DNA of 64,000 bases from NCBI RefSeq assembly GCF_007990755.1, contig NZ_BJXA01000013.1:92883-156882 (forward strand), given 5' to 3'. The notes under the pieces are model-generated. The model worked only from the letters and a program-made list of their open reading frames with translations. It had not been told where the DNA came from and made no database searches. Position 1 is the stretch's first letter. The number at the start of each line of letters is the position of its first letter. Positions 35,773 through 64,000 of the stretch are shown here, piece by piece. Both the position numbers and the translations under genes were made by a program. The stretch comes from Nocardia ninae NBRC 108245. Its GTDB lineage: Bacteria; Actinomycetota; Actinomycetes; Mycobacteriales; Mycobacteriaceae.

Positions 35773-38064
35773 TCAGCGGTCTGCCCGTTCGAGGTCCTTG
35801 CGTAGATACTCGGCGGTGACGGATTTCTTGTCCGCGGCCAGCTGCTCCGGAGTGCCTTCGAACAGCACCTTGCCGCCGTGACGGCCCGCGTCCGGCCCGA
35901 GATCGATGACCCAGTCGGCGTATTTGACGACCTCGAGATCGTGTTCCACCACGATGACCGTGTTTCCTTCGTCGACCAGGCGATCGAAGAGGGTGAGCAG
36001 CCGGTCGACGTCGGCCATGTGCAGGCCGGTGGTCGGCTCATCGAAGACGAACACGGTGCCCGTGTCCTGGAGGCGGTGCGCCAGCTTGAGCCGTTGGCGC
36101 TCACCGCCCGACAGGGTCGAGAGTGGTTGCCCCAGTGTCAAATACGCCAGCCCGACTTCTTGGAGCATCGCGAGCTTGGCGGTCACCTTGTCTTCGGTGA
36201 AGTAGGACAGACTTTCCTCCACGGTGAGCCCGAGCACTTCGGCGATGTTCTTGCCGCGCAACGTCTTTTCGAGCGCCTCGTCCCGATAGCGGCTGCCCTC
36301 ACATACTTCGCAGGTCACCGTGACCGGATCCATGTAGGCGAGGTCCGTCTCGATCACGCCGCGTCCCTTGCACGCCGGGCAGGCGCCGGTCGAGTTGAAG
36401 CTGAACAGGCCGGGGTCGGCATCGTTGGCTTTGGCGAACAGGTTTCGGACGGTGTCCATGATGTCGACATAGGTCGCCGGCGTCGACCGCGAGGAGATGC
36501 CGATGCCCGACTGGTCGACCATGACCGCGTCCGGGTGCTGGGCGGCGAAAGCTCCTGAGATGAGCGAACTCTTGCCGGAGCCCGCCACGCCGGTCACCGC
36601 GGTGAGCACCCCGGTGGGGATGCGCACGGAGACGTTCTGCAAGTTGTTCAGCGATGCCTTGCTGATCTCCAGCGAGCCGGTCGGTTCACGGACCTGCTCC
36701 TTCAAACCGGTGTGCTCACGCAGCCGTCGGCCGGTGAGCGTCTTGGCTTTCAGGAGTTGCCGGTAGGTCCCCTCGAAGACGATCTCACCGCCGTGCGACC
36801 CGGCCCCGGGCCCCATGTCGACGATGCGATCGGCGACGGCCATGACGTCCGGATTGTGCTCGACCACCAGCACGGTGTTGCCGTTGTCACGCAGTTGCGC
36901 GAGAAGCTCGTTGAGCCGGTGCACATCTCGCGGATGCAGGCCGACGCTCGGCTCGTCGAAGATGAAGGTCAGATCGCTCAGGCTGCTGCCGAGATGACGG
37001 ACCGTCTTCAGCCGCTGGCCCTCGCCGCCGGACAGGGTAGAGGTCTCGCGGCCGAGGCTGAGGTAGCCCAGTCCGATCGATTCCAGCCGGGACAGTGCCG
37101 TGATAGCTGCCTGGACAACGGGTTTGGCGACTCGATCGTCGATCTTCCCCAGCTCGACGATCAGTTCGCTCACCTCCATGTCCGCGTAGTCGGCGATGTT
37201 CTTGCCGTTGATCTTGGAGGCGAGCGCGGCCTTATTGAGCCTGCCGCCGCCGCAGACCTCACAGGTGCTGGTCCGCACCACCTGCTCGACGTCCTTGCGC
37301 TCCTTGTCTTTCAGCGCATCCAGGCCGTTCTTGAGATAGCGGCGATTGAACCGGACGACGATGCCCTCGTATTCGTTGGAGTGCGTCACGTCCTTGCCGG
37401 GGCGCCGGACCTTGAATCCTCCGCCGTGCAGCAGCTTGTCCCATTCTGCCGCGGTGAACTTCTGCAACGGCTTATCGGGATCGAACAGTCCGGATTCCGC
37501 GTAGGTGATCCACGGATAGCCGCCGACCGCGAACAGTGGTGACTGGATGGCGCCCTCGTTCAACGACTTCGACTTGTCGAGCAGCAGGTCGAGGTCGAGT
37601 CGCGCGGTCCGGCCGAGTCCTTCGCACTCGGGGCACATGCCCTGCGGAACATTGAACGAGTACATGGTCGACTCGCCCGCGCTGGGCTTGCCGTGCCGCG
37701 AGAACAGCACGCGCAGCATGGGATTGATCTCCGTCATGGTGCCGACGGTCGAGCGGGAGCTGCCGCCGATCTGGCGCTGGTCGACCACGATCGCGGTGGA
37801 CAGATGCGACATGCCCTCGGCGTGCGGCCGCTCGTACTTCGGCAGCCGGTTGCGGATGAACCAGGGGAACGTCTCGTTGAGCTGGCGCTGCGACTCGACT
37901 GCGATCGTGCCGAACACCAGCGACGACTTCCCGGAACCCGATACACCGGTGAAGACGGTCAGCCGCCCCTTCGGGATCTCCAGCGACACATTCTTCAGGT
38001 TGTTTTCTCGGACGCCTTGCAGCGTAATGCTGTCGTTCGCTTGCCGTCCGGCTCGATCCGACAT
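35773..38064 (-). CDS. UvrA-like ABC ATPase, probable PBD self-resistance protein
   Basis: A 763-residue UvrA relative, about 200 residues shorter than housekeeping UvrA (about 950) and lacking the UvrB-binding segment. Two ABC units are complete: Walker A GVSGSGKSSLVFGT and GVAGSGKSSLISGA; signatures TLSGGEGQRLK and TLSGGERQRLKLA; Walker B FIFDEPSVGLH and VFDEPTTGLH. Each half has a pair of CxxC motifs (CPEC/CEVC and CPAC/CEVC), as in UvrA zinc modules. Such short UvrA2/DrrC-type proteins protect producers of DNA-binding antibiotics, and PBDs alkylate DNA. The ATG at 38064 follows AGGGGAG; an in-frame TTG at 38088 is less likely. A palindrome lies 25 bp upstream. Confidence 0.88.
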   Translation of the reverse strand: MSDRAGRQANDSITLQGVRENNLKNVSLEIPKGRLTVFTGVSGSGKSSLVFGTIAVESQRQLNETFPWFIRNRLPKYERPHAEGMSHLSTAIVVDQRQIGGSSRSTVGTMTEINPMLRVLFSRHGKPSAGESTMYSFNVPQGMCPECEGLGRTARLDLDLLLDKSKSLNEGAIQSPLFAVGGYPWITYAESGLFDPDKPLQKFTAAEWDKLLHGGGFKVRRPGKDVTHSNEYEGIVVRFNRRYLKNGLDALKDKERKDVEQVVRTSTCEVCGGGRLNKAALASKINGKNIADYADMEVSELIVELGKIDDRVAKPVVQAAITALSRLESIGLGYLSLGRETSTLSGGEGQRLKTVRHLGSSLSDLTFIFDEPSVGLHPRDVHRLNELLAQLRDNGNTVLVVEHNPDVMAVADRIVDMGPGAGSHGGEIVFEGTYRQLLKAKTLTGRRLREHTGLKEQVREPTGSLEISKASLNNLQNVSVRIPTGVLTAVTGVAGSGKSSLISGAFAAQHPDAVMVDQSGIGISSRSTPATYVDIMDTVRNLFAKANDADPGLFSFNSTGACPACKGRGVIETDLAYMDPVTVTCEVCEGSRYRDEALEKTLRGKNIAEVLGLTVEESLSYFTEDKVTAKLAMLQEVGLAYLTLGQPLSTLSGGERQRLKLAHRLQDTGTVFVFDEPTTGLHMADVDRLLTLFDRLVDEGNTVIVVEHDLEVVKYADWVIDLGPDAGRHGGKVLFEGTPEQLAADKKSVTAEYLRKDLERADR

Positions 38065-38089
38065 CTCCACTCCCCTCAGCGTGCGCAAG

Positions 38090-38109
38090 TAGTTTCCAAA
38101 CGGAAACTA
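38090..38109. promoter_or_regulatory. Operator site A: TAGTTTCC-N4-GGAAACTA before the uvrA-like gene
   Basis: A perfect 8-bp inverted repeat with spacer AAAC, ending 25 bp before the uvrA-like ATG and overlapping the asnB-like stop codon. The same 20-bp pattern occurs twice in the marR/VOC intergenic region (48908-48927, 48935-48954). This suggests that the uvrA-like gene has its own promoter, controlled by the cluster's MarR protein. Confidence 0.75.
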
Positions 38110-39969
38110 TACCAGGACGTCGACCTCATAGTCGGCTACCCATTCCGCGAGACGAATCGGCGTCTCGTTGTATAGCCCCCTTTCCTGCATGGACGAGGCA
38201 GCCTCGACCGGCGCGTTGAGATGCTGGTCCAGCGCGTCGAGATCGAACAGCGGCAGGGCCGGTGAACTGGGCTCCGCGACGATCTTTCCGAGTATCTGCT
38301 TGATCGCCCGGTCGTAGCCGGGATCCTGAGTGGAGGGATAGGGAGCTTTGCGCCGCTGCACAATGGACTCCGGCAGCAGATCCGCGGTGGCGGCGCGCAG
38401 CAGGCTCTTCTCCCGCCCGTCGAACGTCTTCATCGACCACGGCACATTGAAGACATACTCGACCAGGCGATGGTCGCAGAACGGGACACGCACCTCGATA
38501 CCGCTGGCCATGCTCAAGCGGTCCTTGCGATCCAGCATTACCGGCAGCCATCTCGTGAGATTCAGGTAGCTCGCGGTCCGCATTCGCCGGTCGTGGCCGG
38601 TTTCGCCGGTCAGGTGCGGCACTTCTCGAAGGGCCGAGTGGTATTGGTCGGCGATGTATTCCGGAAGATTCAGCCGCGCCGTCAGATCCGGATTCAGGAA
38701 CGCCGTGGATTGCTCGGTGATCGACCGCTCGCCGAGCGCGTGCCAGGGGAAAGTATCGGCCTGCACGGCCTTCTCGTCGTGGAACCACAGGTAACCGCCG
38801 AAGACCTCATCCGCGGATTCACCGGACAGTGCGACGGTGGATTGCTCCCGCACCGCACGGAACAGCAGGTAGAGCGACGGGCCGAGATCGCCGTCACCGA
38901 ACGGCAGATCCCAGGCGCGTGAGACGGCCGCTCGGATGTTCGGGGCCACCAGATCCGCGTTGTTCAGCAGGATCGTCTGATGGTCGGTGCCGACATGCCG
39001 AACCAACTCCGCCGCGAACGGCTGATCGGGCGCTTCGCGCAGCGGCTCCGGCGCGAAATTCTCCACCTGGCCTTCGAAATCCACCGAGAAGCTGCGGATC
39101 CGCCCGCCGCCGTCGGCGTCGAGCCTGCGCTGCGCCAAGGCGGTCAACGCGCTGGAATCCAAACCACCGGACAGCAGCGTGCACAGCGGAACGTCGGCAA
39201 CCAGCTGACGAGAAACAATGTCTTCCAACAAACCCCGGACCGCGCCGACGGTCGCGGGGACGTCATCGGTGTGCGGCCGGCATTCCAGTTCCCAATACTT
39301 CTGCTCGGTCCGCCGGCCATGGCGAACCCGAAGAATATGCCCGGGACGCACCTCGTACATGCCGTCGAGCGGTGTCTGCCCGGGAACCCGGACAAAGGAC
39401 AGCACGTCGCGCAGCCCCTCGAGGGTGAGCGCCGCTCGGCTTTCCGGATGGGCGAGAATCGCTTTCGGTTCGGACCCGAAGAGCACCCCGGCGGGGGTCG
39501 GATAGTAGAACAGCGGCTTGACGCCCAACCTGTCCCGATACAGCAGCAATTCCTCGACGCGGCTGTCCCAGATCGCGAAGGCGAACATGCCGTTCAGTCG
39601 TCGCACGAAATCCGCGCCCCACTCCAGATAGGCGCGGAGGACGACCTCGGTGTCGCTTCGTGTCCTGAAGCGGTGACCGTGCGCCGTGAGTTCGTCGCGA
39701 AGTTCGGTGAAGTTGTATACCTCACCGCTGTAGCTGATCGCGGCCAGCGGCGTGCCGTCGGGCAGCGTCTCCGGCGTGACCATCGGCTGTCGGCCACCCT
39801 CGAGGTCGATCACCGAGAGCCGCCGATGCCCTAGCGCGCAATGCGGCTGTAGCCACAGTCCCTCGTCATCGGGACCGCGGAAAGCCATGGTGTCCACCAT
39901 TTTCTGGAGAACCGGGCGCTCGGCAGTGAGATCACGATCGAAATCTGCCCAACCGGCGATTCCACACAT
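38107..39969 (-). CDS. asnB: Asparagine synthetase-like glutamine amidotransferase (side-chain amidation)
   Basis: A 620-residue class II glutamine-dependent amidotransferase. Cys2 is the N-terminal nucleophile (MCGIAGWADFDRD), with FRGPDDEG and SYSGEVYNFTELRDEL of the glutaminase domain; the synthetase domain has the PPi loop TLLSGGLDSSALTAL (residues about 265-279) and SGESADEVFGGYLWF. In anthramycin-type clusters an AsnB homologue is proposed to convert the side-chain carboxylate into the acrylamide amide. It is last in the order P450, alcohol dehydrogenase, aldehyde dehydrogenase, amidotransferase. It could also act on another carboxylate. Confidence 0.9.
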   Translation of the reverse strand: MCGIAGWADFDRDLTAERPVLQKMVDTMAFRGPDDEGLWLQPHCALGHRRLSVIDLEGGRQPMVTPETLPDGTPLAAISYSGEVYNFTELRDELTAHGHRFRTRSDTEVVLRAYLEWGADFVRRLNGMFAFAIWDSRVEELLLYRDRLGVKPLFYYPTPAGVLFGSEPKAILAHPESRAALTLEGLRDVLSFVRVPGQTPLDGMYEVRPGHILRVRHGRRTEQKYWELECRPHTDDVPATVGAVRGLLEDIVSRQLVADVPLCTLLSGGLDSSALTALAQRRLDADGGGRIRSFSVDFEGQVENFAPEPLREAPDQPFAAELVRHVGTDHQTILLNNADLVAPNIRAAVSRAWDLPFGDGDLGPSLYLLFRAVREQSTVALSGESADEVFGGYLWFHDEKAVQADTFPWHALGERSITEQSTAFLNPDLTARLNLPEYIADQYHSALREVPHLTGETGHDRRMRTASYLNLTRWLPVMLDRKDRLSMASGIEVRVPFCDHRLVEYVFNVPWSMKTFDGREKSLLRAATADLLPESIVQRRKAPYPSTQDPGYDRAIKQILGKIVAEPSSPALPLFDLDALDQHLNAPVEAASSMQERGLYNETPIRLAEWVADYEVDVLV

Positions 39970-39990
39970 CGTCTTGTCCTTTCGCTGTCG

Positions 39991-41478
39991 TTACGCGAGG
40001 GTCGCCCACACGGTCTTCGGTTCGAGATACGCGTCGAGCCCGGCCCGGCCCATTTCCCGGCCGACACCGGACGCTTTGACGCCGCCGAAGGGCGCGGCCG
40101 GATCACCCGGCGCCCACGTGTTGAGATAGACCGAGCCCGCGTGCAGGCGAGCGGCGAGAGTGTGTGCGTCGCTGAGGTTTTGGGTCCAGACCCCGGCCGC
40201 GAGACCAAAGTCGGTGGCATTGGCCAGGTGCACGGCTTCGTCGATGCTGTCGAAGGGGGCTGCCACCAGTACCGGCCCGAAGATCTCCTCGCGACAGATC
40301 CGCATGTCCGGTGTCACATCGGTGAAAAGCGTTGGGCGAATGAAGTATCCGCCATCCGGTTCGGATGCGGGAGCTTCACCGAACGTCAATGTCGCTCCCT
40401 CGGTGGCGCCGTCGCGGATGTAGCCGCGCACCCGGCGGTACTGCTCGGCCGAGACCACGGGTCCGCACTCGGTGGCCGGATCCAGCGCCGAGCCGACCTG
40501 CGCGGTCTTCGCCCGCGCCGACAGCCCCTCGATCACCTCGTCGAACACACTCCGGTGCACGTACAGCCTGGATGCGGCGTTGCACGCCTGGCCGGTATTG
40601 AAGTAGATCCCGTTGTAGCTCCCGGCAATCGCGGCTTCGAGATCAGCGTCGGGAAGGATGATGTTCGGGCTCTTCCCGCCGAGCTCGAGCGTCACCCGCT
40701 TCAGTTGCGCCCCTGCCTTCGCGCCGATCTCGCGCCCCACCGCCGTGGACCCGGTGAACACGATCTTGTCGACGCCCGGGTGATCGACCAGTGCCGCACC
40801 GGTTTCGCCGTCACCGGTCAGCACATTGACCGTGCCCGCCGGGAAACCGGCGGACTCGATCAGCTCGGCCAAGCGCAGCGCGGTCAGTGGCGTCTGCTCG
40901 GCGGGCTTGAGTACCACCGTGCAGCCGGCGGCCAGCGCGGCCCCGAGCTTCCAGGCGGTCATCAACAGTGAGAAGTTCCAGGGAATGATCTGGGCGCACA
41001 CCCCGACCGGTTCTTTCCCGGTGTAGCACAACGTATTCGGCACTGCGACGGGGATCGTCTCGCCCTCGATGCGTGCGGGCCAGCCGCTGAAGTAGCGAAA
41101 CTGAGCGGCCGCCGCAGGCACATCCAGCGCGCGAGTCATCGTGATCGGTTTGCCCGCATCGAGGGATTCGAGCTCGGCGAGCTCGTCGCCATTGCTCTCG
41201 ATGAGGTCGGCGAGGCGGGCGAGCAGCAGGCCGCGGTCGGCCGCCGACTGCCGGCTCCACGGTCCGTCGAGTGCGGCACGGGCCGCGGTTACGGCGGCCG
41301 TGACATCGGCAGATCCCGCATGCGCGACCTCCGTGATGTGTTCGCCGGTGGACGGATCGATCGTGCTGAACGTCCGCCCGGTCGCCGCGGCGACGAAGGC
41401 ACCGTCGATGTACAGCAGCTGTGCACGGGACAGGAAGTCGCGGGCGGCCTCGCCCACGGTGTTACCTGAGGTATTCAC
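39991..41478 (-). CDS. Aldehyde dehydrogenase, NAD(P)-dependent
   Basis: A 495-residue ALDH-superfamily enzyme. Visible are IIPWNFSLLMTAWKLGAALAAGCTVVLKPAEQTPL (Asn and Lys of the cofactor pocket), VFTGSTAVGREIG, the general-base Glu in LELGGKSPN and the catalytic Cys in YFNTGQACNAASRLYVH; EIFGPVL and the C-terminal PFGGVKASGVGREMGRAGLDAYLEPKTVW complete the family pattern. It fits the aldehyde-to-acid step on the proline side chain. The gene is 18 bp after the alcohol dehydrogenase gene. Confidence 0.93.
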   Translation of the reverse strand: MNTSGNTVGEAARDFLSRAQLLYIDGAFVAAATGRTFSTIDPSTGEHITEVAHAGSADVTAAVTAARAALDGPWSRQSAADRGLLLARLADLIESNGDELAELESLDAGKPITMTRALDVPAAAAQFRYFSGWPARIEGETIPVAVPNTLCYTGKEPVGVCAQIIPWNFSLLMTAWKLGAALAAGCTVVLKPAEQTPLTALRLAELIESAGFPAGTVNVLTGDGETGAALVDHPGVDKIVFTGSTAVGREIGAKAGAQLKRVTLELGGKSPNIILPDADLEAAIAGSYNGIYFNTGQACNAASRLYVHRSVFDEVIEGLSARAKTAQVGSALDPATECGPVVSAEQYRRVRGYIRDGATEGATLTFGEAPASEPDGGYFIRPTLFTDVTPDMRICREEIFGPVLVAAPFDSIDEAVHLANATDFGLAAGVWTQNLSDAHTLAARLHAGSVYLNTWAPGDPAAPFGGVKASGVGREMGRAGLDAYLEPKTVWATLA

Positions 41479-41496
41479 GAGTCCTCCCGGTCCGCG

Positions 41497-42552
41497 TCAG
41501 AAGCGGTCGATGACGGTGATGCCGTTGGTGGTGAAATCGCTCATTGCGGAGAGGACTTCCCCGGCCTGGTCGAGGGAGACGGTGCGCTGCACCAGGGTCT
41601 GCGGCGTGAGTTTGCCGGACGCGACGAGCGAGAGCAGCTGCGGATAACTGGAATGCGGATTGCCGTGCGAGCCGACGATGGTCAGCTCACCGATGGTGAT
41701 CGCGTCCACGGGGAGCGCGATCTCACCGGCATCCGCCGCACTGGTCAACCCGACCTGGACGTGGCGACCCCGTTTACGCAGCGAGCGTACGGAATTCACC
41801 ACCGTCGCGCGGGTACCGAGTGCGTCGATCGAGACGTGCGCACCGCCGCCGGTGAGATCCTGTACCGCAGTGGGCACGTCCTGCTCGACGCTCGCGTCGA
41901 TGGTGTGCACCGCGCCCTGTTCTTTGGCCAGTGCCAGCTTGCTCGCGTCGATGTCCACCGCTACCACGGAAGCTCCTGCGGCACCGGCGATCTGCACGGC
42001 CGCCAAGCCGACGCCGCCGACTCCGTGCACCGCGACCCACTCACCGGGACGGACCTGCCCCTGCTCGGTGACCGCGTGGAAGGCCGTCATGAAGCGGCAG
42101 CCGATCGCGCTGGCAGGGACGGACGGGAGCTCGTCCGGTATGTGTACACAGTTGAAGTCGGCGTTGGGGATTCGGACATACTCGGCGTACCCTCCGTCGC
42201 ACCAGAAGCCCAGCACCTGCATGTTGTCGCACACGTTTGCGTGCCCTGAACGGCAGTACGCGCAAGTGCCGCAGGCCAAGTGGAACGGCGTGGTGACCCG
42301 GTCGCCGACCCGCACACCGCGAACCTCGGCACCGACGGCGCGCACCGTGCCGACGATCTCGTGACCCAGTGTGCGTGGCAACGCGACCTGTCCGCCCATC
42401 CACCCCCAGTCACCCATCCAGGCGTGCCAGTCGCTGCGGCAGATACCGGTCGCGAGGACTTCGAGCACTACGCCGTCCGGTTCTGGTGCAGGGTCGGGGA
42501 TTTCGCGTAGTTCGAGTGGGGCACCGTACTCGACGATCTGTGCCGCTTGCAT
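41497..42552 (-). CDS. Zinc-dependent alcohol dehydrogenase
   Basis: A 351-residue medium-chain dehydrogenase. Catalytic zinc ligands are in GICRSDWHAW and LGHEIVG; the structural zinc site is CGTCAYCRSGHANVC with four Cys; the cofactor motif is VHGVGGVGLAAVQIAGAAGASVVAVDID. It would oxidise the hydroxymethyl group made by the neighbouring P450 to the aldehyde. It lies 12 bp after the P450 stop and 18 bp before the aldehyde dehydrogenase. Confidence 0.93.
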   Translation of the reverse strand: MQAAQIVEYGAPLELREIPDPAPEPDGVVLEVLATGICRSDWHAWMGDWGWMGGQVALPRTLGHEIVGTVRAVGAEVRGVRVGDRVTTPFHLACGTCAYCRSGHANVCDNMQVLGFWCDGGYAEYVRIPNADFNCVHIPDELPSVPASAIGCRFMTAFHAVTEQGQVRPGEWVAVHGVGGVGLAAVQIAGAAGASVVAVDIDASKLALAKEQGAVHTIDASVEQDVPTAVQDLTGGGAHVSIDALGTRATVVNSVRSLRKRGRHVQVGLTSAADAGEIALPVDAITIGELTIVGSHGNPHSSYPQLLSLVASGKLTPQTLVQRTVSLDQAGEVLSAMSDFTTNGITVIDRF

Positions 42553-42564
42553 GGTCGCCCCCTT

Positions 42565-43752
42565 TCAGGAGATACGGACGGGGAGCGTGTCCAGTCCCCG
42601 GGTGATGTTGTTCGGCGTCCGGATGGGATCGCCGGCGAGCTCGACCGTGGTCGCCCGTTTGGCGAGCGCGACGAACAGCGCGTGCGCCTCCATCGAGGCG
42701 AGGGTGCGGCCCGGGCAGTTGTGCACGCCGAAGCCGAAACCGACGGTGTCGGCCGGATTGCGGTCCGCCTGAAAGCGATCCGGATCGGGGTAGTGGCGTT
42801 CGTCCCGATTCGCGGCGGCGTAGGAGACGAGGACTCGGGCGCCTTCGGGAATCGTCACGCCCTCGACCTCCCGGTCCGCGGTGGTGACCCGGGAGAAGTG
42901 CTGGATCGGCGTCTCGAGCCGGACGCCTTCCAGGAACGCGCCGGGGACGAGCTTCGGGTCCTGCCGCACGGCCGCCCACTGGTCCGGGTGCTGAGCCAGC
43001 AGCCAGAGGGTGCTGGCCACCCCGGCGATGGTGGTGTCCAACCCGGCGCAGGCGTACGCGCTCATGGTCATCAGGGCTTCGTTCTCGCTGATCTCGCCGC
43101 GATCGGCTGCCTCCCAGACGATTTGGCCGAAGCTGTCGGGCAGCAGCTTGTCCGGTGTCGCGTCGGTGACGAGATACTGCATCAGCGCCTGCACATCGGG
43201 GAAGGTGGACAGCTGACGTTCTCCGGGCGGCCCGAAGTAGTTGAAGGCGCCGAGTGCCCAGACCAGAATCTTGTCCCGGTTCTCGTCACGGGGGAAGCCG
43301 ATGAGGTCCATCACGATGTCGACCGGCAGCTTGGCCGCGAAATCGGTGACACCGTCGAAGGTTTCGCGCTGCATCAGGTCGTCGACCAGTTGGTCGGCCA
43401 GGTGCTCGATATTGCCCGCGACCTTGCGCACGTACTTGGGGCGCAGGGCGTCGTCGAGGACCTTGCGCACCGCGCGGTGTCGCGGCGGGTCCATGGAAAG
43501 CAGTGAGCCGTCGGAGAGTTCGTTGGCGGTGGGGTTCATCGCGATGCCCTGGGCGGAGCTGAAGCCCTCCCAGTCGATGAGCGCCGCGCGCACCTGGTCG
43601 TAGCGGAACAGGCCGTACAGGTCGTGTTCGGTCATGTGGACCACGGGACCCAGGTCGCGCAATGTCCGGTAGCAGGGGGCGGGATCGAGCAGCGCTTCGG
43701 TCGAGAAGAGATCCAGATCGGTCTGGGCCGCAGCGGTTTCGGTGGTGGTCAC
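42565..43752 (-). CDS. Cytochrome P450
   Basis: A 395-residue bacterial P450. The heme-binding loop is FGFGVHNCPGRTLA with Cys346, the I-helix is AYACAGLDTTIAGVAST, the ExxR is in FLEGVRLETP and SMDPPRHRAVRKVL is typical of the CYP fold. The GTG at 43752 overlaps the stop of the upstream methyltransferase (GTGA). By gene order it would hydroxylate the terminal methyl of the C3 side chain, the first step to the acrylamide (proposed for anthramycin; inferred here). No ferredoxin gene is next to it. Confidence 0.92.
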   Translation of the reverse strand: MTTTETAAAQTDLDLFSTEALLDPAPCYRTLRDLGPVVHMTEHDLYGLFRYDQVRAALIDWEGFSSAQGIAMNPTANELSDGSLLSMDPPRHRAVRKVLDDALRPKYVRKVAGNIEHLADQLVDDLMQRETFDGVTDFAAKLPVDIVMDLIGFPRDENRDKILVWALGAFNYFGPPGERQLSTFPDVQALMQYLVTDATPDKLLPDSFGQIVWEAADRGEISENEALMTMSAYACAGLDTTIAGVASTLWLLAQHPDQWAAVRQDPKLVPGAFLEGVRLETPIQHFSRVTTADREVEGVTIPEGARVLVSYAAANRDERHYPDPDRFQADRNPADTVGFGFGVHNCPGRTLASMEAHALFVALAKRATTVELAGDPIRTPNNITRGLDTLPVRIS

Positions 43753-44810: not shown

Positions 44811-44843
44811 CGTTGTTCCTTCCGAAGGTGTTGTGGCCGAGCG

Positions 44844-46643: not shown

Positions 46644-46688
46644 GGGGGTACTCCCTACGATTTCGAAGTTCGACCGACTTGAATGTGG

Positions 46689-48149: not shown

Positions 48150-48197
48150 CGCTTCGGCTCCCGTCCGGCATGATCGGCTCGGCGATCGAGAAAATCG

Positions 48198-48881: not shown

Positions 48882-48907
48882 TGGTCTCTCCTCACCGGGC
48901 ACGGATT

Positions 48908-48927: not shown

Positions 48928-48934
48928 GTTGGCT

Positions 48935-48954: not shown

Positions 48955-49004
48955 GTTTACGGTAGTGGCACCAACTCGTACTCTGTCACACAGAAGGAGT
49001 GGTT

Positions 49005-55631: not shown

Positions 55632-56428
55632 CCAGCGCCCCGGAGTATCTCGCCCCCGAGTACGTCACCTACGCGCACATGGACGAACTGCACGAGTTGC
55701 AGCGTCCGCGCAGTGCAGCCCGCGGCGAGCTGAACTTCATCCTGATCAGCCACGTCAAAGAGCTGTTGTTCCGCGCGGTGATCGACGATCTCGACACCGC
55801 TCGCCGTGCGCTGGAGCGCGACGACGTGCCCGATGCCTGTCTGGCGCTGTCCCGGTCGGTCCGCACGCAGCGGGTCCTGGTGGCCTGCTGGGAATCGATG
55901 AACGGCATGTCGGTCGACGAGTTCGTGGCCTTCCGGCACGTCCTCAACGATGCCTCCGGCACCCAGTCCTTCGCCTACCGTGCCCTGGAGTTCCTGATGG
56001 GGAACCGGCCGGAAAATCAAGTGGCGGCGGCTTTCCGGGATGGCCACCCGATGCTGCGGGCCGAGCTGGGCAAGCCGTCGCTGTACGACACGGTCTTGCA
56101 ACACCTTGCCCGGCAGGGCTTTTCGGTTCCGGCCGAGTGCCTGGCGAAACCGTCTGCCGAGCAGCACGAGTCGAATCCGCTCGTGGAGGACGTGTGGCTC
56201 GACATCTACCGGCAGCCGGACCGGTATCCCGACGCGCACCGGCTCGCGGAGAGCCTGCTCGAGGTCGCGTATCAGTTCTCCCATTGGCGGGCCACGCATC
56301 TGCTGGTGGTGGAACGGATGCTCGGCGGTAAGAGCGGGACGGCAGGCACCGACGGTGCCCCGTGGCTGCGCGCCATCAACGAACACCGTTTCTTCCCGGA
56401 GCTGTGGACATTCCGCACCCGGCTGTAG
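55628..56428 (+). CDS. kynA: Tryptophan 2,3-dioxygenase
   Basis: A 266-residue heme dioxygenase that opens the indole ring of L-tryptophan to N-formylkynurenine. Visible are YVTYAHMDELHELQRPRS, NFILISHVKELLFRAVIDDLDTARRAL (the FIxxHQxxELWF-like region with distal His) and FSHWRATHLLVVERMLGGKSGTAGTDGAPWL (proximal heme His and GTGG-like loop). The ATG at 55628 overlaps the kynureninase stop. A pathway-dedicated copy like those in anthramycin, sibiromycin and tomaymycin clusters. Confidence 0.93.
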   Translation: MTSAPEYLAPEYVTYAHMDELHELQRPRSAARGELNFILISHVKELLFRAVIDDLDTARRALERDDVPDACLALSRSVRTQRVLVACWESMNGMSVDEFVAFRHVLNDASGTQSFAYRALEFLMGNRPENQVAAAFRDGHPMLRAELGKPSLYDTVLQHLARQGFSVPAECLAKPSAEQHESNPLVEDVWLDIYRQPDRYPDAHRLAESLLEVAYQFSHWRATHLLVVERMLGGKSGTAGTDGAPWLRAINEHRFFPELWTFRTRL

Positions 56429-56474
56429 ACGCGGCCTCAGAGAAATCACCGACTGCTGGAGGAATACGATCACG

Positions 56475-57539
56475 ATGACGGAACTGAAGACCGAGCTGAC
56501 GAAACCGGTCGACCTCACCTCGCTCGTCCCGGTGTTGTTCGGATTTGCTGCCTTTCAGCAATTGCGCGCCGCCTCGGAACTGCAACTGTTCGAATACCTC
56601 GACCTGAACGGCCAGGCCACCAGCGACCAGGTCGCCGCGGGGCTGGGGCTGCCCGTCAAATCGGCACGCAAGCTGCTGCTCGGCACCACCTCGCTCGGCC
56701 TCACCGATCGGGCGGACGACCGGTACGCGCTGAGCGAGATGTTGCGTGCCGCAATGGAAGACGGCACCTGGCCGCTCATCCGCAACATCATCGACTTCCA
56801 GCAGCGGCTGTCCTACCTGCCCGCGAAGGAGTACGCCGAGTCGTTGCGCACCGGCAAGAACCTCGGCCTGAAACACCTGCCCGGCACCGGAAACGACCTC
56901 TACACCAGGCTCGAACAGACGCCGGAGCTGGAGAATCTGTTCTTCCGCGGCATGCATTCCTGGTCGGAGTTGTCCAATCCGGTGCTGCTGCACCAGGTGG
57001 ACTACCGCGGCGTGACCAGGATCCTGGACGTCGGCGGCGGCGACGCGGTCAATGCGATCGCGCTCGCACAGGCCCACCCGCACTTGAAGATCACCGTGTT
57101 CGATCTCGAGGGCGCCGTCGAGGTGGCCGGCGACAATATCGCCGCCGCCGGGCTGGGTGACCGCATCGACGTGGTCGCCGGGGACATGTTCGGCGACCCG
57201 CTGCCCGGCGGGTACGACGCCGCGCTGTTCGCCCATCAGTTCGTGATCTGGTCGCCGGAACAGAACGTGGCGCTGCTCGAACGGGCCTACGCGGCGCTGC
57301 CGCCGGGCGGGCGGGTCATCGTGTTCAACGCGTTCGCCGACGACGACGGCCGTGGGCCGCTCTACACCGCGCTGGACAACGTGTACTTCACCACGTTGCC
57401 GTCCGAGGAGTCGACGATCTACCCGTGGCGTGAGCACGAAGAGTGGCTTGTCGCAGCGGGTTTCACCGACATCCTGCGAATTCGCAGCGACGGTTGGACG
57501 CCGCACGGTGTGATCGAAGGGCGCAAGGCCAATGAGTAA
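56475..57539 (+). CDS. SAM-dependent methyltransferase acting on the aromatic unit (SibL-like)
   Basis: A 354-residue small-molecule methyltransferase with an N-terminal dimerisation/winged-helix part (AAFQQLRAASELQLFEYLDLNGQATSDQVAAGLGLPVKSARKLLLGTTSLGL) and the SAM domain ILDVGGGDAVNAIALAQAHPHLKITVFDL, VVAGDMFGDPLP, VIVFNAF. In sibiromycin the SibL homologue C-methylates 3-hydroxykynurenine at C-4, and anthramycin has a comparable gene; O-methylation is the alternative. GGAGGA lies 13 bp before the ATG. The stop overlaps the next gene by 8 bp. Confidence 0.85.
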   Translation: MTELKTELTKPVDLTSLVPVLFGFAAFQQLRAASELQLFEYLDLNGQATSDQVAAGLGLPVKSARKLLLGTTSLGLTDRADDRYALSEMLRAAMEDGTWPLIRNIIDFQQRLSYLPAKEYAESLRTGKNLGLKHLPGTGNDLYTRLEQTPELENLFFRGMHSWSELSNPVLLHQVDYRGVTRILDVGGGDAVNAIALAQAHPHLKITVFDLEGAVEVAGDNIAAAGLGDRIDVVAGDMFGDPLPGGYDAALFAHQFVIWSPEQNVALLERAYAALPPGGRVIVFNAFADDDGRGPLYTALDNVYFTTLPSEESTIYPWREHEEWLVAAGFTDILRIRSDGWTPHGVIEGRKANE

Positions 57540-58422
57540 GCTCACCCGGTTGGACCGCGAGTATTCGCCCAGCTCGGCCGCCCGTGACCCGGCCGGCACG
57601 CTGCGGCGGTACCGGCGGCGCAGCGATACCGCCCGTTCCCGGCTCGACGTGCACATCGCGGTGCCCTACGGCGCGGGACACGGCGAGCGGTGTCATGTGT
57701 TTCCCGCTGTGCCGCAAGGCATCCGGGGACCGGAGACGCCCGCCCTCGTTTTCGTGCACGGCGGGCACTGGCAAGAGTCCGGCATCGACGACGCGTGCTT
57801 CGCGGCCCGGCAGGCGGTGCGGCACGGCTGCGCGTATGTCGCCGTAGGGTACGGGCTCGCCCCGGATCGCACGGTGCCGGGCATGATCGCCTCGGTGGCG
57901 CGGGCCCTGGAGTGGCTCGCGGGCACCGGGCCGCTGCTCGGGATCGACCCGGAGCGGTTGCATGTGGCGGGCAGCAGCGCGGGCGCGCATCTGCTGGCCG
58001 CGGCGCTCGCGGGCGCCGACGCGCCCAGGGTGCGCAGCGCGTGCTTGCTGAGCGGCCTGTACGACCTCACCGAGATTCCGGAGACCTACGTCAACGAGGC
58101 CGTCCGGCTGACACCCGAGACCGCCCGCGCGTGCAGCCCGCTGCGGATGTCCGCGCCGCGGTGCGATTCGATCCTGCTCGCCGCCGGGCAGCACGAGACT
58201 CGAACCTATCTGCGGCAACACGAGCGGTACGCCGAACATCTTGCCGCACAGCACATCCCGGTGGACGCGCGGATCGTGTCCGGGCGGGATCACTTCGACC
58301 TGCCGCTGGACCTGGTCGATCCGTCGACCCCGTTCGGCCGGACCAGCCTGCGGCACCTCGGCCTGGCACCGCGCCGCCGAGGCTCCGCCACCCCGGAAGG
58401 AACGGTGACATCAGCGCGATGA
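57532..58422 (+). CDS. Kynurenine formamidase-like alpha/beta hydrolase
   Basis: A 296-residue alpha/beta hydrolase of the esterase/formamidase type. The oxyanion motif is LVFVHGGHWQESGID (HGGxW as in arylformamidases), the nucleophile elbow is LHVAGSSAGAHLLAAAL, and the catalytic His is probably in GRDHFDLPLDLVD. It would deformylate N-formylkynurenine between tryptophan dioxygenase and kynureninase. Two operon neighbours encode those steps, supporting this over a general esterase. Its stop overlaps the NRPS start (ATGA). Confidence 0.87.
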   Translation: MSKLTRLDREYSPSSAARDPAGTLRRYRRRSDTARSRLDVHIAVPYGAGHGERCHVFPAVPQGIRGPETPALVFVHGGHWQESGIDDACFAARQAVRHGCAYVAVGYGLAPDRTVPGMIASVARALEWLAGTGPLLGIDPERLHVAGSSAGAHLLAAALAGADAPRVRSACLLSGLYDLTEIPETYVNEAVRLTPETARACSPLRMSAPRCDSILLAAGQHETRTYLRQHERYAEHLAAQHIPVDARIVSGRDHFDLPLDLVDPSTPFGRTSLRHLGLAPRRRGSATPEGTVTSAR

Positions 58423-60239
58423 AGAACTCACTGACCGCCGCCCCGATCGAGTCCGCGACCACGGGCCCGGCCGCGACGGCCACCACCGAGACGATCGCCG
58501 ACGCGTTCGTGCGCACCGCACGCGAGCACGCGGACCGCGAGGCGATATCCGACGGCAGCACGACGCTGACCTACGCCGAACTGGACGCCATCAGCAGCCA
58601 GATCGCGCGAGCGCTGCGCGACCGAGACCTACCGGTCGGCGCGCGCGTCGGGGTGCATCTGGACCGCAGCCTCGCCACCTATCAGGTGTTCCTGGGCATT
58701 CTCAAGGCCGGTCTCGTTGTCGTCCCGTTCAATCCGGTGCATCCGGCAGCGCACAAGTCGCGGATGTTCCGTGCCGCCGAGCCCGCCGTCACGGTGATCG
58801 ACGCGGGCGAGACGCCGGACGGATTCCCCGCAGAGGCTTGCCTGCCGGTCACCGAGTTGCTGTCGGCCGCGAAGTCGTTGTCCACCGAATCGGGGCCGTC
58901 CGCGGTGACCGCGGCGGCGCCCGCGTTCATCCTGTTCACCTCGGGCTCGACCGGCGTGCCCAAGGGAGTGGTGATCGCGCATCGTGGGATCGCGCGGGTG
59001 TCCCGGCATCTCACCGGATTCACTCCTGGACCGGCGGACCGGTTCCTGCAACTCGCGCAGCCCGCGTTCGCCGCATCGACCACCGACATCTGGACCTGTC
59101 TGCTGCGGGGTGGCCGGCTCACCGTCGCACCGCAGGAGATGCCGCCGCTCGGCGACCTCGCGAGACTTATTGAGCGCGAACGTATTACGGTGCTCAACCT
59201 CTCGGTCGGTTTGTTCAATCTGCTGGTCGAGCACCACTCGAAGAGCCTCGCGCAGGTGCGGACGGTGATCGTCAGCGGCGACTTTCCCTCCGCATCGCAC
59301 CTGGAGCGCGCGCTGGCCGTGGTCGACGGCGATGTGTTCAATGCCTTCGGCTGCACGGAGAATTCGGCGCTCACCGCCGTCCACAAGATCACCGCGGCGG
59401 ACCTGTCCGATGCCGAGATCCCGGTCGGCCGGCCGATGCCCACCGTCGAGCTGACGGTGCGGGACGAGGCGCTGGACGAATGCCCGCCCGGCCGGATCGG
59501 CGAACTGTGCATAGCGGGCGACGGGGTGGCGTCGGGCTACCTCAATGATCCGGAACTCACCGCGCGCAAGTTCGTTCGGCACGACGGTCAGCGACTGCTG
59601 CGGACCGGCGACCTGGCCAAGCTGACCGAGGACGGGGAGATACTCCTCGCGGGCCGCACCGACCAGATGGTGAAGGTGCGCGGGTTCCGGGTCGAGCCAC
59701 GGCATGTCGAGGTGACGGCCGAGGCGTTCCCCGGCGTCGCACAGGCGGTGGCGCAGGCCGTGCCGAGCGGTGGTGCGGCGGGTCAGCTGGCGCTGTGGTG
59801 TGTGCCGACGACGGGGCACGAACTGTCCACCGACGAGCTGACGGAGCATCTGCGGAAGTCGTTGCCCGACTACATGGTTCCGTCGACGGTGTTGCTGCTC
59901 GACGCGTTTCCGCGCAATACCAACGGCAAGATCGACCGCAAGGATCTCTCGTCGCGATTGGTGCCCGCCGAGGACGACGAGTCGACGGTCGAGGAGACCA
60001 GAACTGAGGATCAGCTGGCCCAGGTCGTCCGCACGACCCTGCTGAACGCCACCGGGCTGGCCGACATCGATCTGGATGCCGGTCTCATCGAAAGCGGTGT
60101 CACCTCACTGCAATTGATCGACCTCGGCGCTCGGCTGGAGGAGGTGTCGGGGGTCGCACTGGCACCCGACGACATCGTGGGCGTCGGCACCGTGCGCGGT
60201 GTCGCCGACCTGATCCGCACCAAACGGGCGCGAGGCTGA
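58419..60239 (+). CDS. NRPS loading module A-PCP for anthranilate-type acid
   Basis: A 606-residue two-domain NRPS. Adenylation motifs: A3 FILFTSGSTGVPKGV (residues about 170-184), A4 PAFAASTTDIW (215-225), A5 NAFGCTEN, A7 RLLRTGDLAK, A8 GRTDQMVKVRGFRVEPRHVE, A10 PRNTNGKIDRKD. At residue 218 the Asp that binds an amino acid's alpha-amino group is replaced by Ala, as in aryl-acid-activating domains. The PCP has Ser563 in ESGVTSLQLIDLG. It matches the stand-alone anthranilate modules of PBD systems (TomA, SibE type). Its ATG at 58419 overlaps the hydrolase stop; the downstream NRPS starts 1 bp after its stop. Confidence 0.9.
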   Translation: MKNSLTAAPIESATTGPAATATTETIADAFVRTAREHADREAISDGSTTLTYAELDAISSQIARALRDRDLPVGARVGVHLDRSLATYQVFLGILKAGLVVVPFNPVHPAAHKSRMFRAAEPAVTVIDAGETPDGFPAEACLPVTELLSAAKSLSTESGPSAVTAAAPAFILFTSGSTGVPKGVVIAHRGIARVSRHLTGFTPGPADRFLQLAQPAFAASTTDIWTCLLRGGRLTVAPQEMPPLGDLARLIERERITVLNLSVGLFNLLVEHHSKSLAQVRTVIVSGDFPSASHLERALAVVDGDVFNAFGCTENSALTAVHKITAADLSDAEIPVGRPMPTVELTVRDEALDECPPGRIGELCIAGDGVASGYLNDPELTARKFVRHDGQRLLRTGDLAKLTEDGEILLAGRTDQMVKVRGFRVEPRHVEVTAEAFPGVAQAVAQAVPSGGAAGQLALWCVPTTGHELSTDELTEHLRKSLPDYMVPSTVLLLDAFPRNTNGKIDRKDLSSRLVPAEDDESTVEETRTEDQLAQVVRTTLLNATGLADIDLDAGLIESGVTSLQLIDLGARLEEVSGVALAPDDIVGVGTVRGVADLIRTKRARG

Positions 60240-60240
60240 C

Positions 60241-63200
60241 ATGACGGCTACCGAGCAACACACAGCGAACGGCGCGCAGCACCTGCCCGCGTCCCCGGCC
60301 CAGCCCGGTATGTGGTTCGACAGCATCTACGGCGCCGATCCCACGGCGTACAACCAGCCACTGGTGCTGCGGCTGCACACCCTGCTCGACCATCAAGCCC
60401 TCGCCGAGGCGCTGCGGATCGTGCATCAGGACCATTCGGCGCTGCGCACCACCTTCGAGATGGCCGCCGACGGCGAGTTGCGACAGGTGGTGCACGGCGA
60501 ACTGACGCCGGACGTCGACGTGCGTGATGATCACGGCGGCGATCCCGAGGACTGGGTGGCCGAGCAACTGGCGGAGGTCGCGGGGGCTGTTTTCGATCTG
60601 CGTGGCGGTCCGCTGGCCCGGGTCCGGCACCTCCGGTTCGCCGAGGGCCGGAGCCTGCTGGTGTTCAACATTCACCACACGGTGTTCGACGGCATGTCGT
60701 TCAAGCCGTATCTCAGCCAGGTGGAGGCGACCTACACCGCGCTGGTGCACGGCGACGAGCCGCAGCAGCGACCGCATCGCCAAGCCGTCGAGGCGTACGA
60801 GCGCTGGGCCGAGCTGGCCGACAATGCCGACACGCTGCACTACTGGCGGGAGAAGCTGGCGAAAGCCCCTGCGGCAGTGTCGTTCGGGCTGCCGGGCACC
60901 GGGACGCCACGGCACGTGACCCGGCAGCAGGTGCTCGACGACGAGCTCGCGGCGCGGGTGCGCGAGTTCTGTGCCGCGGAGGGCATCACCACCAGCATGT
61001 TCTTCGTCGCCCTCTGCTTCGTGCTGCTGCACCGGCAGACCGGGCAGGACGAAGTGCTGCTGGGGATCCCGGTCTCGGTGCGCGGCGCCGGCGACGCCGA
61101 GGTGATCGGCCATCTCACCAATACCGTTGTGCTGCAACACCACCTCGACCGCGGCGCGACCGCCCGTGACGTGTTGCGCAGAGTGAAACGTGAAGTGCTG
61201 GAGGCGCTTCGGCACCGGCACGCGCCACTGGAGGCGGTGCTCGGCGAGGTCCGCGCGGCCGGTGGCACGCAGGACGGGGCCTTGTTCAACGCGATGGTCA
61301 CCGTGATGCCCGCCGCGGCCCGCCGGCTGGACCTGCCCGAGTGGGGCGTGCAGACCTGGGAGCACGCGCCGGGTGGCGCCAAATACGACCTGGCGATCCT
61401 GGTGGACGAGACGGCGGACCAGTACACCCTGGTCGTCGAGCACGTCACGGCCGCGGCCGACGGCGAAAGCTTCACGGCCTATCTGGCGCAGCGGCTGCAC
61501 ACCTTGGTCGACAGCGTGCTCACCGAGCCGGACGGGCAGATCAACGAACTGCGTTGGACGAGTGAGGCGGAGGAGCAGGCCATCACGGAGCTGTGCGCCC
61601 GCCGGAAGGACGCGCCCGAGCTGGGCACCGAGTTGACCGCCGATCTGTTCGGGGCGAGCGCCGCGGCGGCGAGCGCGGAACCCGCGGTGATCGCCGACGG
61701 GACGGTGACCACCTACGCCGAATTGGCAAGTCGCGCAGACGCCGTGGCGGCCACGCTGGTAGATCGGGGAGTCCGGGACGGACTGCCGGTCGCCGTGCTG
61801 ATGCGGCCCGGCCTGGATCTGATCGCGACGGTGATCGGCATCCTGCGCGCGGGTGGCAGCTACGTCACCTTGGATGCCGAACCGCGGGAGCGGTTGAACT
61901 TCGTACTGAACGATTGCGGCGCAACCATTCTGCTGCGTGGTGCCGAGATCGACCTCGCGGGCGTGTCGTTGCCCGCAGGACTCGAAGTCATCGAGGTATC
62001 CGAAACAGGCGGTGCAGCAGCGTCATTCGATGGCGCGCGGAAGGCGCCCGAGGACACGGCGTACATCGTCTACACGTCGGGCTCCACCGGCCGCCCCAAA
62101 GGTGTTCGGCTGCCGGAGGTCACGCTGGCGAACCTGGCCCACAACCAAGTCATCTTCTCCGGGGAACGCCGGACGCGCACATTGCAGTACATGCCGCCCG
62201 CCTTCGACGTGTTCGCCATCGAGGTGTTCGGAACCCTCTGCGCCGGTGGCACTCTGGTGATCCCGCCGGCGGACGCCCGCACCGATTTCGAGGCTTTGGC
62301 CGCTTTGCTGGCCGACGAGCGGATCGAGCGGGCCTACCTGCCCTATGTCACGCTCCGTGAGCTGGCCGCCGTGCTCCGATCGTCGCCGGTGGACTTGCCG
62401 GACCTGCGCGAGGTGTACGTCACCGGCGAGCGGCTGGTGATCACCGGCGATATGCGGGCGATGTTCCGGCGAAACCCGAACGCGCGGTTGATCAATGCCT
62501 ACGGGCCGTCCGAGGCGCACCTGTGCAGTTGGGACGCGTTGCCCGACGATCCCGACGCCTGGCCGACCATTCCGTCGATCGGCCGGGTCGTCGCGGGTGT
62601 CGACGCGTATGTGCTCAGTGCCGCCGACGGCACTGCTCGGCGAGCACCGTTCGGCGTCGAGGGCGAACTCTGCGTCGCGGGCCCGGTCGTCTCGCCGGGG
62701 TATATCGGCCTGCCGGACAAGACGCGCGAGGCCATGGTTCCCGACCCGTTCGTCCCCGGCCAGCTGATGTACCGCACCGGCGATGTGGTGGTGCTGGCCC
62801 CGGACGGGTCCCTGCACTACCGCGGCCGCAAGGACGATCAGGTCAAGATCCGCGGCTATCGCGTCGAGCCGGGCGAGATAGAAGCCGCGCTGGAACGGGA
62901 ATTGGAGGTGGACGCCGCCGCCGTGATCGTGGTGTCCGAAGGCGGCGACCGAGCGCTGCACGCCTTCGTGCAGAGCGCCGCAGCGCCGTCGAAGGACTGG
63001 CGCACCCGGCTCGGCGCGGTGCTGCCCGGCTACATGATCCCGCGCCGGCTCACCCGCATCGACGCCATCCCGGTGACCTCGAACGGGAAGACCGACCGTC
63101 GCGCTCTGGCGGCACAGCCGATCTCACCGGATCCCGCCGATGAGGTCGACCAGTCCGATGTCACCTGGACCGACGCGGAGCGCACGATGGCCGCGCTGTG

Positions 63201-64000
63201 GTCCGAGGTGCTCGGCGACCGGCCGACGACCCCGGAGGTCGACTTCTTCGCGGTCGGCGGTCACTCGCTGCTGGCCGCCCGGCTGCACCGGCTGGTCAAA
63301 AAGCGCTTCCGCACCGACGTCGCACTGTCGGTGCTGCTGAGCACGCCGACACCGCGCGGCATGGTGCAGAGCCTCGTCGACGAAACTGCCGCCGCCGCAC
63401 CGGATCTGGGTGCGGAGGCCCGCCTGCCCGACCTCACGGTGGGGGAGCGGCAGGAGCCGGCCGACGGCACGGTATTGCTCACCGGCGCAACCGGATTCCT
63501 CGGCAGTCACCTGCTCGACGAGCTACAGCGGACCGGGCATCGCGTGCACTGCCTGGTCCGGGCCGACAGCGTCGCGGACGGGCGCGAACGCCTGCGCCGG
63601 ACCTGCCGGAAATTCGCGCTCGACCCGTCCGGGCTCGACGAGGTGGGCATCTGCCTCGGCGATCTCGACCAACCGAAGTTCGGGCTGGGCAACGACTACG
63701 AAGCACTGGCCCGCGAGGTGACCGACGTCTACCACGCGGCCGCGCACATCAACTTCGTCGTGCCATATCACACGGTCAAACGCACGAACGTGGACGGACT
63801 GCGGCACCTGCTCGACTTCTGCGGGATCAACCGCACGCCGCTGCGCCTGATCTCCACCATGGGCGTCTTCCCGCCGGACTCCACCGCGGGCCTGGTCGGC
63901 GAGGACACGGTGCCGGGCGATCCCGCGTCGCTGGGTATCGGGTACTCGCAGAGCAAGTGGGTCGCCGAGCGGCTCGCGCTGGCGGCGCGCGAGGCCGGGC
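60241..64000 (+). CDS. NRPS C-A-PCP-reductase (PBD-releasing module), 3' end cut by window
   Basis: 1253 codons are in the window. Condensation domain: [13 protein letters not shown] with His145-His146...Asp150. Adenylation: [27 protein letters not shown] with the amino-acid Asp656, [73 protein letters not shown] with Ser1009. Reductase: [18 protein letters not shown] from residue about 1078, [24 protein letters not shown] and the catalytic [14 protein letters not shown]. It would join anthranilate to the 4-alkyl(dehydro)proline and release the aldehyde, which closes to the carbinolamine/imine of a PBD, as in TomB, SibD and the anthramycin NRPS. About 100-200 residues are missing at the end. 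Confidence 0.92.
   Translation, partial: [1253 protein letters not shown]

Follow-up and report, generated by a model that had tools for sequence, protein, structure and literature searches.

Whether Nocardia ninae NBRC 108245 carries a complete pathway for an anthramycin-type pyrrolobenzodiazepine (PBD), a DNA-binding antitumour antibiotic, and which compound such a pathway would yield, is the question raised by the right half of the stretch analysed here (64,000 nucleotides, hereafter the window). The named actinobacterial PBD producers are mostly Streptomyces, at least in the accessible parts of the literature cited here, and PBDs are under development as payloads of antibody-drug conjugates (available text of PMC5958127). 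Positions 35773-64000 hold 21 PBD cluster genes, as assigned by Pfam and PDB sequence matches. Judged from gene content, order, motifs and conservation, the locus is very probably a complete anthramycin-type cluster.

Architecture of the locus and the contig end

The window ends where its contig (C13) ends, inside the gene of the C-A-PCP-reductase, which has no gene end there. The last 14 bases of C13 are identical to the end of contig C46 of the same genome. C46 (locus L011) holds the rest of the reductase domain, followed by genes for a kynurenine 3-monooxygenase, a response regulator and an amine oxidase. In Nocardia suismassiliense, all genes spanning the break lie on one contig and the reductase occupies a single open frame. 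The 14-base overlap and this synteny support joining C13 to C46, and the completed right flank would contain a full reductase domain. The original prediction had placed every expected gene class in the window; the classes it named were all found at their predicted positions, while the kynurenine 3-monooxygenase and the remainder of the reductase turned up on C46.

The host, described at first as Nocardia-like, can now be placed more sharply: the window aligns to a 40 kb stretch of N. suismassiliense S-137 over 32,310 bases at a mean DNA identity of 94.4% (BLAST pieces summed, overlaps included). Chance is excluded, since 21 neighbouring genes match one known pathway and their order is conserved in 9 other Nocardia genomes. 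A plasmid origin was considered and rejected, as the tyrosine hydroxylase had no tblastn match among 72,556 plasmid records.

The 4-alkylproline and anthranilate units

The six-enzyme set for a proline unit with a three-carbon side chain (LmbB1, B2, A, W, X and Y types) is complete, the PhzF (LmbX type) match being the weakest. By analogy with published pathways, tyrosine would first meet a haem-dependent L-tyrosine 3-hydroxylase (ORF13/LmbB2 type; 51786..52694, plus strand; PDB 7kqr, E 1.4e-46), which has no match in Pfam or NCBIfam, and then an L-DOPA 2,3-dioxygenase (ORF12/LmbB1 type; 51319..51789, plus strand; PDB 6on1, E 8.6e-42), whose frame is open from 51205 and whose start at 51319 is a guess from the PDB match. 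C-C bond cleavage is assigned to a gamma-glutamyltranspeptidase homologue (ORF6/LmbA type; 44844..46643, minus strand; G_glu_transpept, E 8e-108), which scores below the NCBIfam cut-off and retains a D407-T408 pair; an Asp-Thr pair is described for Ant6 in the available text of PMC5519988. A C-methyltransferase with methyltransferase folds (ORF5/LmbW type; 43749..44810, minus strand), conserved in position in all 9 relatives, would provide for the three-carbon side chain. A PhzF-fold isomerase (ORF15/LmbX type; 53572..54399, plus strand; PhzC-PhzF, E 2e-10; Pfam match confined to the model's first third, score below the NCBIfam cut-off) and an F420-dependent reductase (ORF14/LmbY type; 52691..53575, plus strand; Bac_luciferase, E 7e-31; NCBIfam F420 LLM-class models matched below cut-off) would complete the 4-alkylproline.

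The kynurenine-type set of PBD clusters (TDO, formamidase, kynurenine 3-monooxygenase and kynureninase) is complete across C13 and C46. Tryptophan would be converted to 4-methyl-3-hydroxyanthranilate by tryptophan 2,3-dioxygenase (TDO, ORF17; 55628..56428, plus strand; Trp_dioxygenase, E 1.3e-46), an aryl formamidase-like alpha/beta hydrolase (ORF20; 57532..58422, plus strand; Abhydrolase_3), the ring-hydroxylating kynurenine 3-monooxygenase on C46 (FAD_binding_3; collinear with relatives), an aromatic-ring C-methyltransferase (ORF19/SibL; 56475..57539, plus strand; PDB SibL 4qvg, E 3.5e-130 over 339 residues) and kynureninase (ORF16; 54396..55631, plus strand; KYNU_C; NCBIfam kynureninase, E 8e-55, below cut-off). 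The PDB matches of the SibL-type protein, the tyrosine hydroxylase and the DOPA dioxygenase, together with the Asp-Thr pair, place these proteins among PBD families rather than outside them, as the original prediction requires.

Assembly, side chain and presumed self-protection

The two NRPS proteins expected for PBD assembly are both present. The A-PCP protein (ORF21; 58419..60239, plus strand; AMP-binding, PP-binding) is predicted to load 4-methyl-3-hydroxyanthranilate. The C-A-PCP-reductase (ORF22; 60241..64000, plus strand, continuing on C46; Condensation, AMP-binding, PP-binding, NAD_binding_4) would load the 4-alkylproline, couple both units and release a dipeptide aldehyde, whose closure would give the imine ring; reductive release is predicted from its domains and from the intact motifs HHTVFDG, GGHS, GATGFLG and YSQSK. 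Adenylation-domain codes were sought at 13 named loci via motif anchors, in GrsA numbering, position 278 of the anthranilate domain being least certain; the limazepine producer and locus L063 had no match in the stretch examined. The A-PCP code AATNISAALK is without Asp235. The proline domain keeps Asp235, but 6 of its 8 inner positions do not fit the modular L-proline pattern (PMC3874040, available text). According to the same text, a pocket glycine is required in LmbC for propylproline and modular PBD domains are unlike LmbC; in a motif-based alignment, the window's proline domain has Leu at the place of this glycine.

The anthramycin-type side-chain set is likewise complete by Pfam and consists of five genes: a glutamine-dependent amidotransferase of the asparagine-synthase type (ORF1/Por8; 38107..39969, minus strand; Asn_synthase, E 8e-94; N-terminus MCGIAG; above the NCBIfam asparagine synthase cut-off) for the side-chain amide, an aldehyde dehydrogenase (AldDH, ORF2; 39991..41478, minus strand; Aldedh, E 6e-176) and a zinc alcohol dehydrogenase (ADH, ORF3; 41497..42552, minus strand; ADH_N, ADH_zinc_N) for side-chain oxidation, a cytochrome P450 (ORF4; 42565..43785, minus strand; p450, CYP199-type PDB relatives, haem motif FGFGVHNCPG) for hydroxylation, and an FAD-linked oxidoreductase (ORF7/Por12; 46689..48149, minus strand; FAD_binding_4, Cytokin-bind). 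Following ring closure, these enzymes would build the acrylamide side chain. Their order is that given for anthramycin in PMC4194701. The gene list of the original prediction stood as far as it went, yet these five genes (38107-48149) and a MarR regulator (48402-48902) were missing from it.

Cell protection from the product is ascribed, on the model of published pathways, to three proteins: a UvrA-like ABC ATPase (ORF8/Por3/Lim15 type; 35773..38064, minus strand; Pfam ABC_tran and UvrA DNA-binding), scoring 724.7 bits against an NCBIfam UvrA cut-off of 729.8, a two-domain VOC/bleomycin-resistance-type protein (ORF9/Por7; 48999..49772, plus strand; Glyoxalase in two stretches) and a predicted MFS exporter (ORF10/Por6; 49804..50994, plus strand; MFS_1, E 8e-52). 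The sources conflict on ORF8: PMC4194701 lists it without a UvrA-type (Por3) match, whereas the available text of PMC5958127 gives one and sets ORF8, POR3 and Lim15 in one table row. The MarR-type regulator (48402..48902, minus strand; MarR_2; Lim17-like) is an extra gene beyond the anthramycin set, otherwise listed for limazepine only in the published tables; it matches the limazepine producer's locus at 71% identity across 84% of its length.

The predicted product

The product is best predicted to be anthramycin or a close congener, because the extra methyltransferase of the porothramycin type was not seen. Counterparts of por25 and por26 were found neither from the UvrA gene to the amine oxidase gene nor in 10 further frames scanned on C46. 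The porothramycin table has no AldDH, ADH or TDO, all three of which the present locus holds. The side-chain genes correspond to the set published for anthramycin, which gives the class originally assigned more support than it had at first. It is less probable, though a chance worth reckoning with, that a functional cluster yields a congener other than anthramycin, either porothramycin-like (O- and N-methylated) or altered in another way. Several PBDs are made from the same core, the cluster has its additional MarR regulator, and the genome has further Methyltransf_2 genes elsewhere (C2, C4 and C28, more weakly C10 and C14) that could act in trans. The porothramycin cluster, too, includes the ring methyltransferase, although porothramycin itself is without that methyl (PMC4194701); the compound made therefore does not follow from gene content alone. 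The proline-domain code differs among the Nocardia copies (DVIYYTALCK or DVLYYTALCK; DVLYVTALCK in N. sp. CDC159), whereas the window's A-PCP code recurs unchanged in 8 of 8 further Nocardia copies that were read and in 2 of 4 copies from outside the genus.

Conservation in Nocardia

The idea that the anthramycin-type cluster is unique to the N. ninae strain was rejected. Of 150 Nocardia genomes, 10 contain the NRPS at E <= 1e-300, and a tyrosine hydroxylase of at least 72% identity is present in the same 10; 16 more genomes with weaker hydroxylase matches (up to 45%) were not counted as holders. The holders include N. brasiliensis, N. vulneris and N. pseudobrasiliensis. Nine further Nocardia genomes, including three of N. 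brasiliensis, have collinear clusters with 66-100% protein identity per gene; one of these clusters is cut by a contig end. In the stretches examined, the UvrA, MarR and VOC genes are absent from N. pseudobrasiliensis and the UvrA gene from N. sp. CDC159.

The Nocardia copies form one clade in a cluster tree based on 8 genes, for which 18 of 41 loci plus G031 and the window were chosen by hand. L046 was excluded as cut, and the other omitted loci hold fewer of the 8 genes, though L061 and L069 hold 7; three Streptomyces loci of the outgroup (L062, L065, L066) are perhaps not of this PBD type. An rpoB tree drew on 30 genomes (the 10 holders and 20 of the 140 non-holders) and contains 25 of them in 28 rows, with three second copies kept; G030 (a holder), G001 and G010 gave no match, the G002 match was weak and that of G005 in pieces. 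Rows G000 and G075 are incomplete, and some rows (G073, G075) group with second copies; because two gene copies are mixed, this tree is only a rough guide.

A silent or decayed cluster without product is very improbable. No producer report was found in the literature searched and the N. pseudobrasiliensis stretch lacks three genes, but the 22 translated frames of the window are free of internal stops, catalytic motifs are intact, and the identity and shared gene order among relatives point to selection. Tyrosine-derived proline enzymes are also common to lincomycin- or hormaomycin-type pathways feeding another peptide, a reading of negligible probability that gene content rules out, as the kynurenine branch, the A-PCP anthranilate module and the C-A-PCP-reductase are contiguous with the proline genes and the cluster genes scanned include no sugar gene and no further NRPS.

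Significance

We found no report of a PBD cluster in Nocardia in the open literature searched; the novelty is reduced by the fact that cluster-holding N. brasiliensis genomes have been public for years. The conserved full cluster represents a new set of natural enzymes, and the two species that have the pathway but no UvrA of the cluster type provide a natural contrast. N. pseudobrasiliensis causes invasive disease, and PBDs of Klebsiella oxytoca contribute to tissue damage in colitis. N. brasiliensis causes mycetoma (available text of PMC3670865). The two Nocardia diseases raise the question whether these species make a genotoxin. It is a speculative and rather improbable proposal that an anthramycin-type DNA-alkylator is conserved across the whole lineage in the N. 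brasiliensis and N. pseudobrasiliensis groups, is made during infection and adds to tissue damage as the Klebsiella PBDs do in colitis.

Comparison with known PBD clusters

All 23 of the 23 ORFs counted in the anthramycin cluster of Streptomyces refuineus (ORF1-25; EU195114) have a family counterpart here, as judged by family and published tables (PMC4194701; available part of PMC5958127); ORF11 and ORF18 were left out of the count because the porothramycin authors regard both as artefacts. The counterparts of ORF1-7, 9-10, 12-17 and 19-23 are arranged as their numbers run. Unlike in anthramycin, where it sits between ORF7 and ORF9, the UvrA gene adjoins ORF1, the MarR gene fills the ORF7-ORF9 gap, ORF25 precedes ORF24 and the host is a Nocardia.

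With porothramycin (S. albus ATCC 39897; PMC4194701) the cluster shares the core proline and kynurenine genes, UvrA, MFS, VOC, amine oxidase and response regulator; besides lacking TDO, AldDH and ADH, porothramycin differs in having a fused NRPS-KMO gene and two additional methyltransferases. In limazepine (Streptomyces sp. ICBB 8177, L064), 3-hydroxyanthranilate comes from the chorismate/DHHA route and the sixth proline gene, the methyltransferase, is missing, according to the available text of PMC5958127, whereas its proline half resembles the window's at 31-60% identity by gene, its UvrA at 70%, its MarR at 71% and its amine oxidase at 55%. Sibiromycin, finally, shares with the window cluster the SibL-type ring C-methyltransferase.

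Gene content and borders of the cluster

The anthramycin-type pyrrolobenzodiazepine (PBD) cluster, which the original prediction placed at 35773..64000, is real by its gene content and, once its right flank on a second contig (C46) is added, apparently complete. The window (G000:C13:92883-156882) ends with the last base of contig C13 and harbours 21 cluster genes between 35773 and its end. The first nine are encoded on the minus strand: a UvrA-like ATPase, an amidotransferase, an aldehyde dehydrogenase (AldDH), a zinc alcohol dehydrogenase (ADH) and a P450, followed by a methyltransferase, a gamma-GT homologue, a FAD oxidase and a MarR regulator. The plus strand carries genes 10-15 (VOC protein, MFS exporter, DOPA dioxygenase, tyrosine hydroxylase, F420 reductase, PhzF isomerase) and 16-21 (kynureninase, tryptophan dioxygenase (TDO), ring methyltransferase, formamidase-like hydrolase and the NRPS genes A-PCP and C-A-PCP-reductase). 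The 22 translated window frames (the 21 cluster genes and one neighbour) are devoid of internal stops.

A search for reductase domains across the N. ninae genome yielded matches that include one at the end of C46, where the profile resumes (195-258) at the point where the window part (1-193) stops. The final 14 bases of the window recur, in frame, as the opening 14 of the C46 end after reverse complementation. Right after the NRPS, C46 encodes a kynurenine 3-monooxygenase (469 aa), the start of which overlaps the NRPS stop, and then a response regulator and an amine oxidase; in N. suismassiliense the NRPS and these three genes lie on one contig. The objection that the completed flank might lack a functional reductase domain is thus answered, because the domain resumes on C46 and the N. 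suismassiliense NRPS is a single open frame of 1454 aa. The NRPS of Nocardia sp. CDC159 (G092:C14:96088-99825) is an open frame of 1969 aa, compared to 1454-1489 in other relatives, which suggests a fusion with the kynurenine 3-monooxygenase, like Por21 of porothramycin.

Ten further C46 frames, including a betaine-type ABC transporter, TauD, a glycosyltransferase, a UDP-GlcNAc epimerase and an aromatic-ring hydroxylase, look unrelated to a PBD, and therefore the amine oxidase was taken as the right border. The hydroxylase (FAD_binding_3/Rng_hyd_C type; L011:11207-12670 in the C46 stretch), located approximately 1.6 kb past the amine oxidase, may or may not be part of the cluster; it is 95% identical at the same place in N. 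suismassiliense, and other relatives are without a close match.

Biosynthetic enzymes

The ring methyltransferase matches the sibiromycin enzyme SibL (E 3.5e-130), and in the proline half matches were obtained to haem-dependent L-tyrosine hydroxylase for the tyrosine hydroxylase (E 1.4e-46) and to L-DOPA dioxygenase for the dioxygenase (E 8.6e-42). The gamma-GT homologue contains Asp407-Thr408, taken as the counterpart of the self-cleavage pair D429-T430 described for Ant6 of anthramycin in the accessible text of PMC5519988.

A separate locus in three other Nocardia genomes (L113, L114 and L115, from G009, G129 and G018) encodes adenylation domains and homologues of the window's DOPA dioxygenase (40-45% identity), tyrosine hydroxylase (39-41%) and F420 reductase (44-46%; in L115 at the edge of the stretch). 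Within 20 kb of this locus, no gamma-GT or PhzF match was obtained at E 1e-10. The locus may serve a different pathway of Nocardia to a tyrosine-derived proline.

The C-A-PCP-reductase NRPS retains the motifs HHTVFDG, GGHS, GATGFLG and YSQSK. The anthranilate A-domain code, AATNISAALK, is without the Asp235 typical of alpha-amino-acid domains. The proline A-domain code, DVIYYTALCK, disagrees at 6 of 8 inner positions with VQ(Y/F)IAHVV, the pattern of modular L-proline domains; according to the sections available of the same source (PMC3874040), branched-proline domains differ from this pattern by 3 to 6 residues, and the LmbC (lincomycin) glycine stressed there is absent from the window's proline domain. 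A PBD-like locus of S. albus subsp. chlorinus (L054) carries the anthranilate code AATHLSATLK (3 of 10 positions differ); the 21 kb covered yielded no kynureninase or TDO match.

Distribution in the genus Nocardia

The tyrosine hydroxylase (at least 72% identity) and the NRPS (E <= 1e-300) occur in the same 10 of 150 genus genomes: N. ninae itself, N. suismassiliense, N. colli, N. tenerifensis, N. vulneris, N. pseudobrasiliensis, N. sp. CDC159, and N. brasiliensis NBRC 14402, IFM 10847 and apparently HUJEG-1. Outside Nocardia, Streptomyces seoulensis A01 and Actinokineospora enzanensis, among 41 loci, are related and collinear over the part covered. A tree built from eight concatenated proteins unites the Nocardia copies in one group (support 1.000). 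An approximate rpoB phylogeny of 25 genomes places the holders in three patches with non-holders between them, so that a gain followed by losses and transfers within the genus would both be possible. Similarity of the flanking DNA is mainly confined to subgroups. Two rpoB-type genes were seen in many of 30 Nocardia genomes, N. ninae and relatives among them.

Among six genomes searched for the presumed self-resistance protein UvrA, four (G000, G127, G041, G031) encode the cluster type (89-100% identity), and the same four also possess relatives of 59-63%. The best relative reaches 51% identity in N. pseudobrasiliensis and 59% in N. sp. CDC159. Within 40 kb of the N. pseudobrasiliensis locus (L036/L037), no match to the UvrA, MarR or VOC proteins was found.

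Among the open papers that searches on Nocardia with PBDs or anthramycin brought up, no title or beginning of an abstract describes a PBD cluster in Nocardia. AFU02188 and YP_006809167 are presumably N. brasiliensis accessions, and thus the porothramycin authors may already have met these proteins. The two are the best matches for por2 and por18 in Table 2 of PMC4194701. In the text available, PMC7285244 has Nocardia/PBD terms in its reference list only, and the paper on the N. brasiliensis HUJEG-1 genome mentions anthramycin a single time, citing it as a “macrolide” example (PMC3670865). The main texts of the Nocardia cluster surveys PMC4035055, PMC7413640 and PMC12153302 contain neither “anthra(n)” nor “sibiromycin”.

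The interest of the cluster lies in its conservation within a genus that includes human pathogens. Tilivalline, a PBD of Klebsiella oxytoca, has been tied to colitis (PMC5875774, in part); a similar disease role for a Nocardia PBD would be a hypothetical parallel.

Comparison with known PBD clusters

The anthramycin cluster comprises ORF1-25 (PMC4194701, PMC5958127), of which ORF11 and ORF18 are considered artefacts (PMC4194701). As far as the available portions of these papers go, all 23 remaining ORFs have counterparts here, matched by family and position rather than by alignment to EU195114. The anthramycin order is kept for ORF1-7, 9-10, 12-17 and 19-23, whereas the counterpart of ORF8 (UvrA), on the type of which the two papers are at odds, is displaced, and that of ORF25 precedes that of ORF24. 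The S. seoulensis A01 locus has a UvrA gene with 81% identity to that of the window, placed between its counterparts of ORF7 and ORF9.

Porothramycin, as described in the portion available of PMC4194701, lacks the AldDH, ADH and TDO, all of which are present in the window cluster, whereas the porothramycin-specific methyltransferases are absent from the latter. Methylation in trans is possible, because further O-methyltransferase-family genes exist outside the cluster in the N. ninae genome. The limazepine producer's locus encodes a MarR protein 71% identical to the window's over 84% of its length, and in the published table this regulator has no counterpart in other clusters (PMC5958127, in part). 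Set beside these systems, the Nocardia cluster is no new kind of system.
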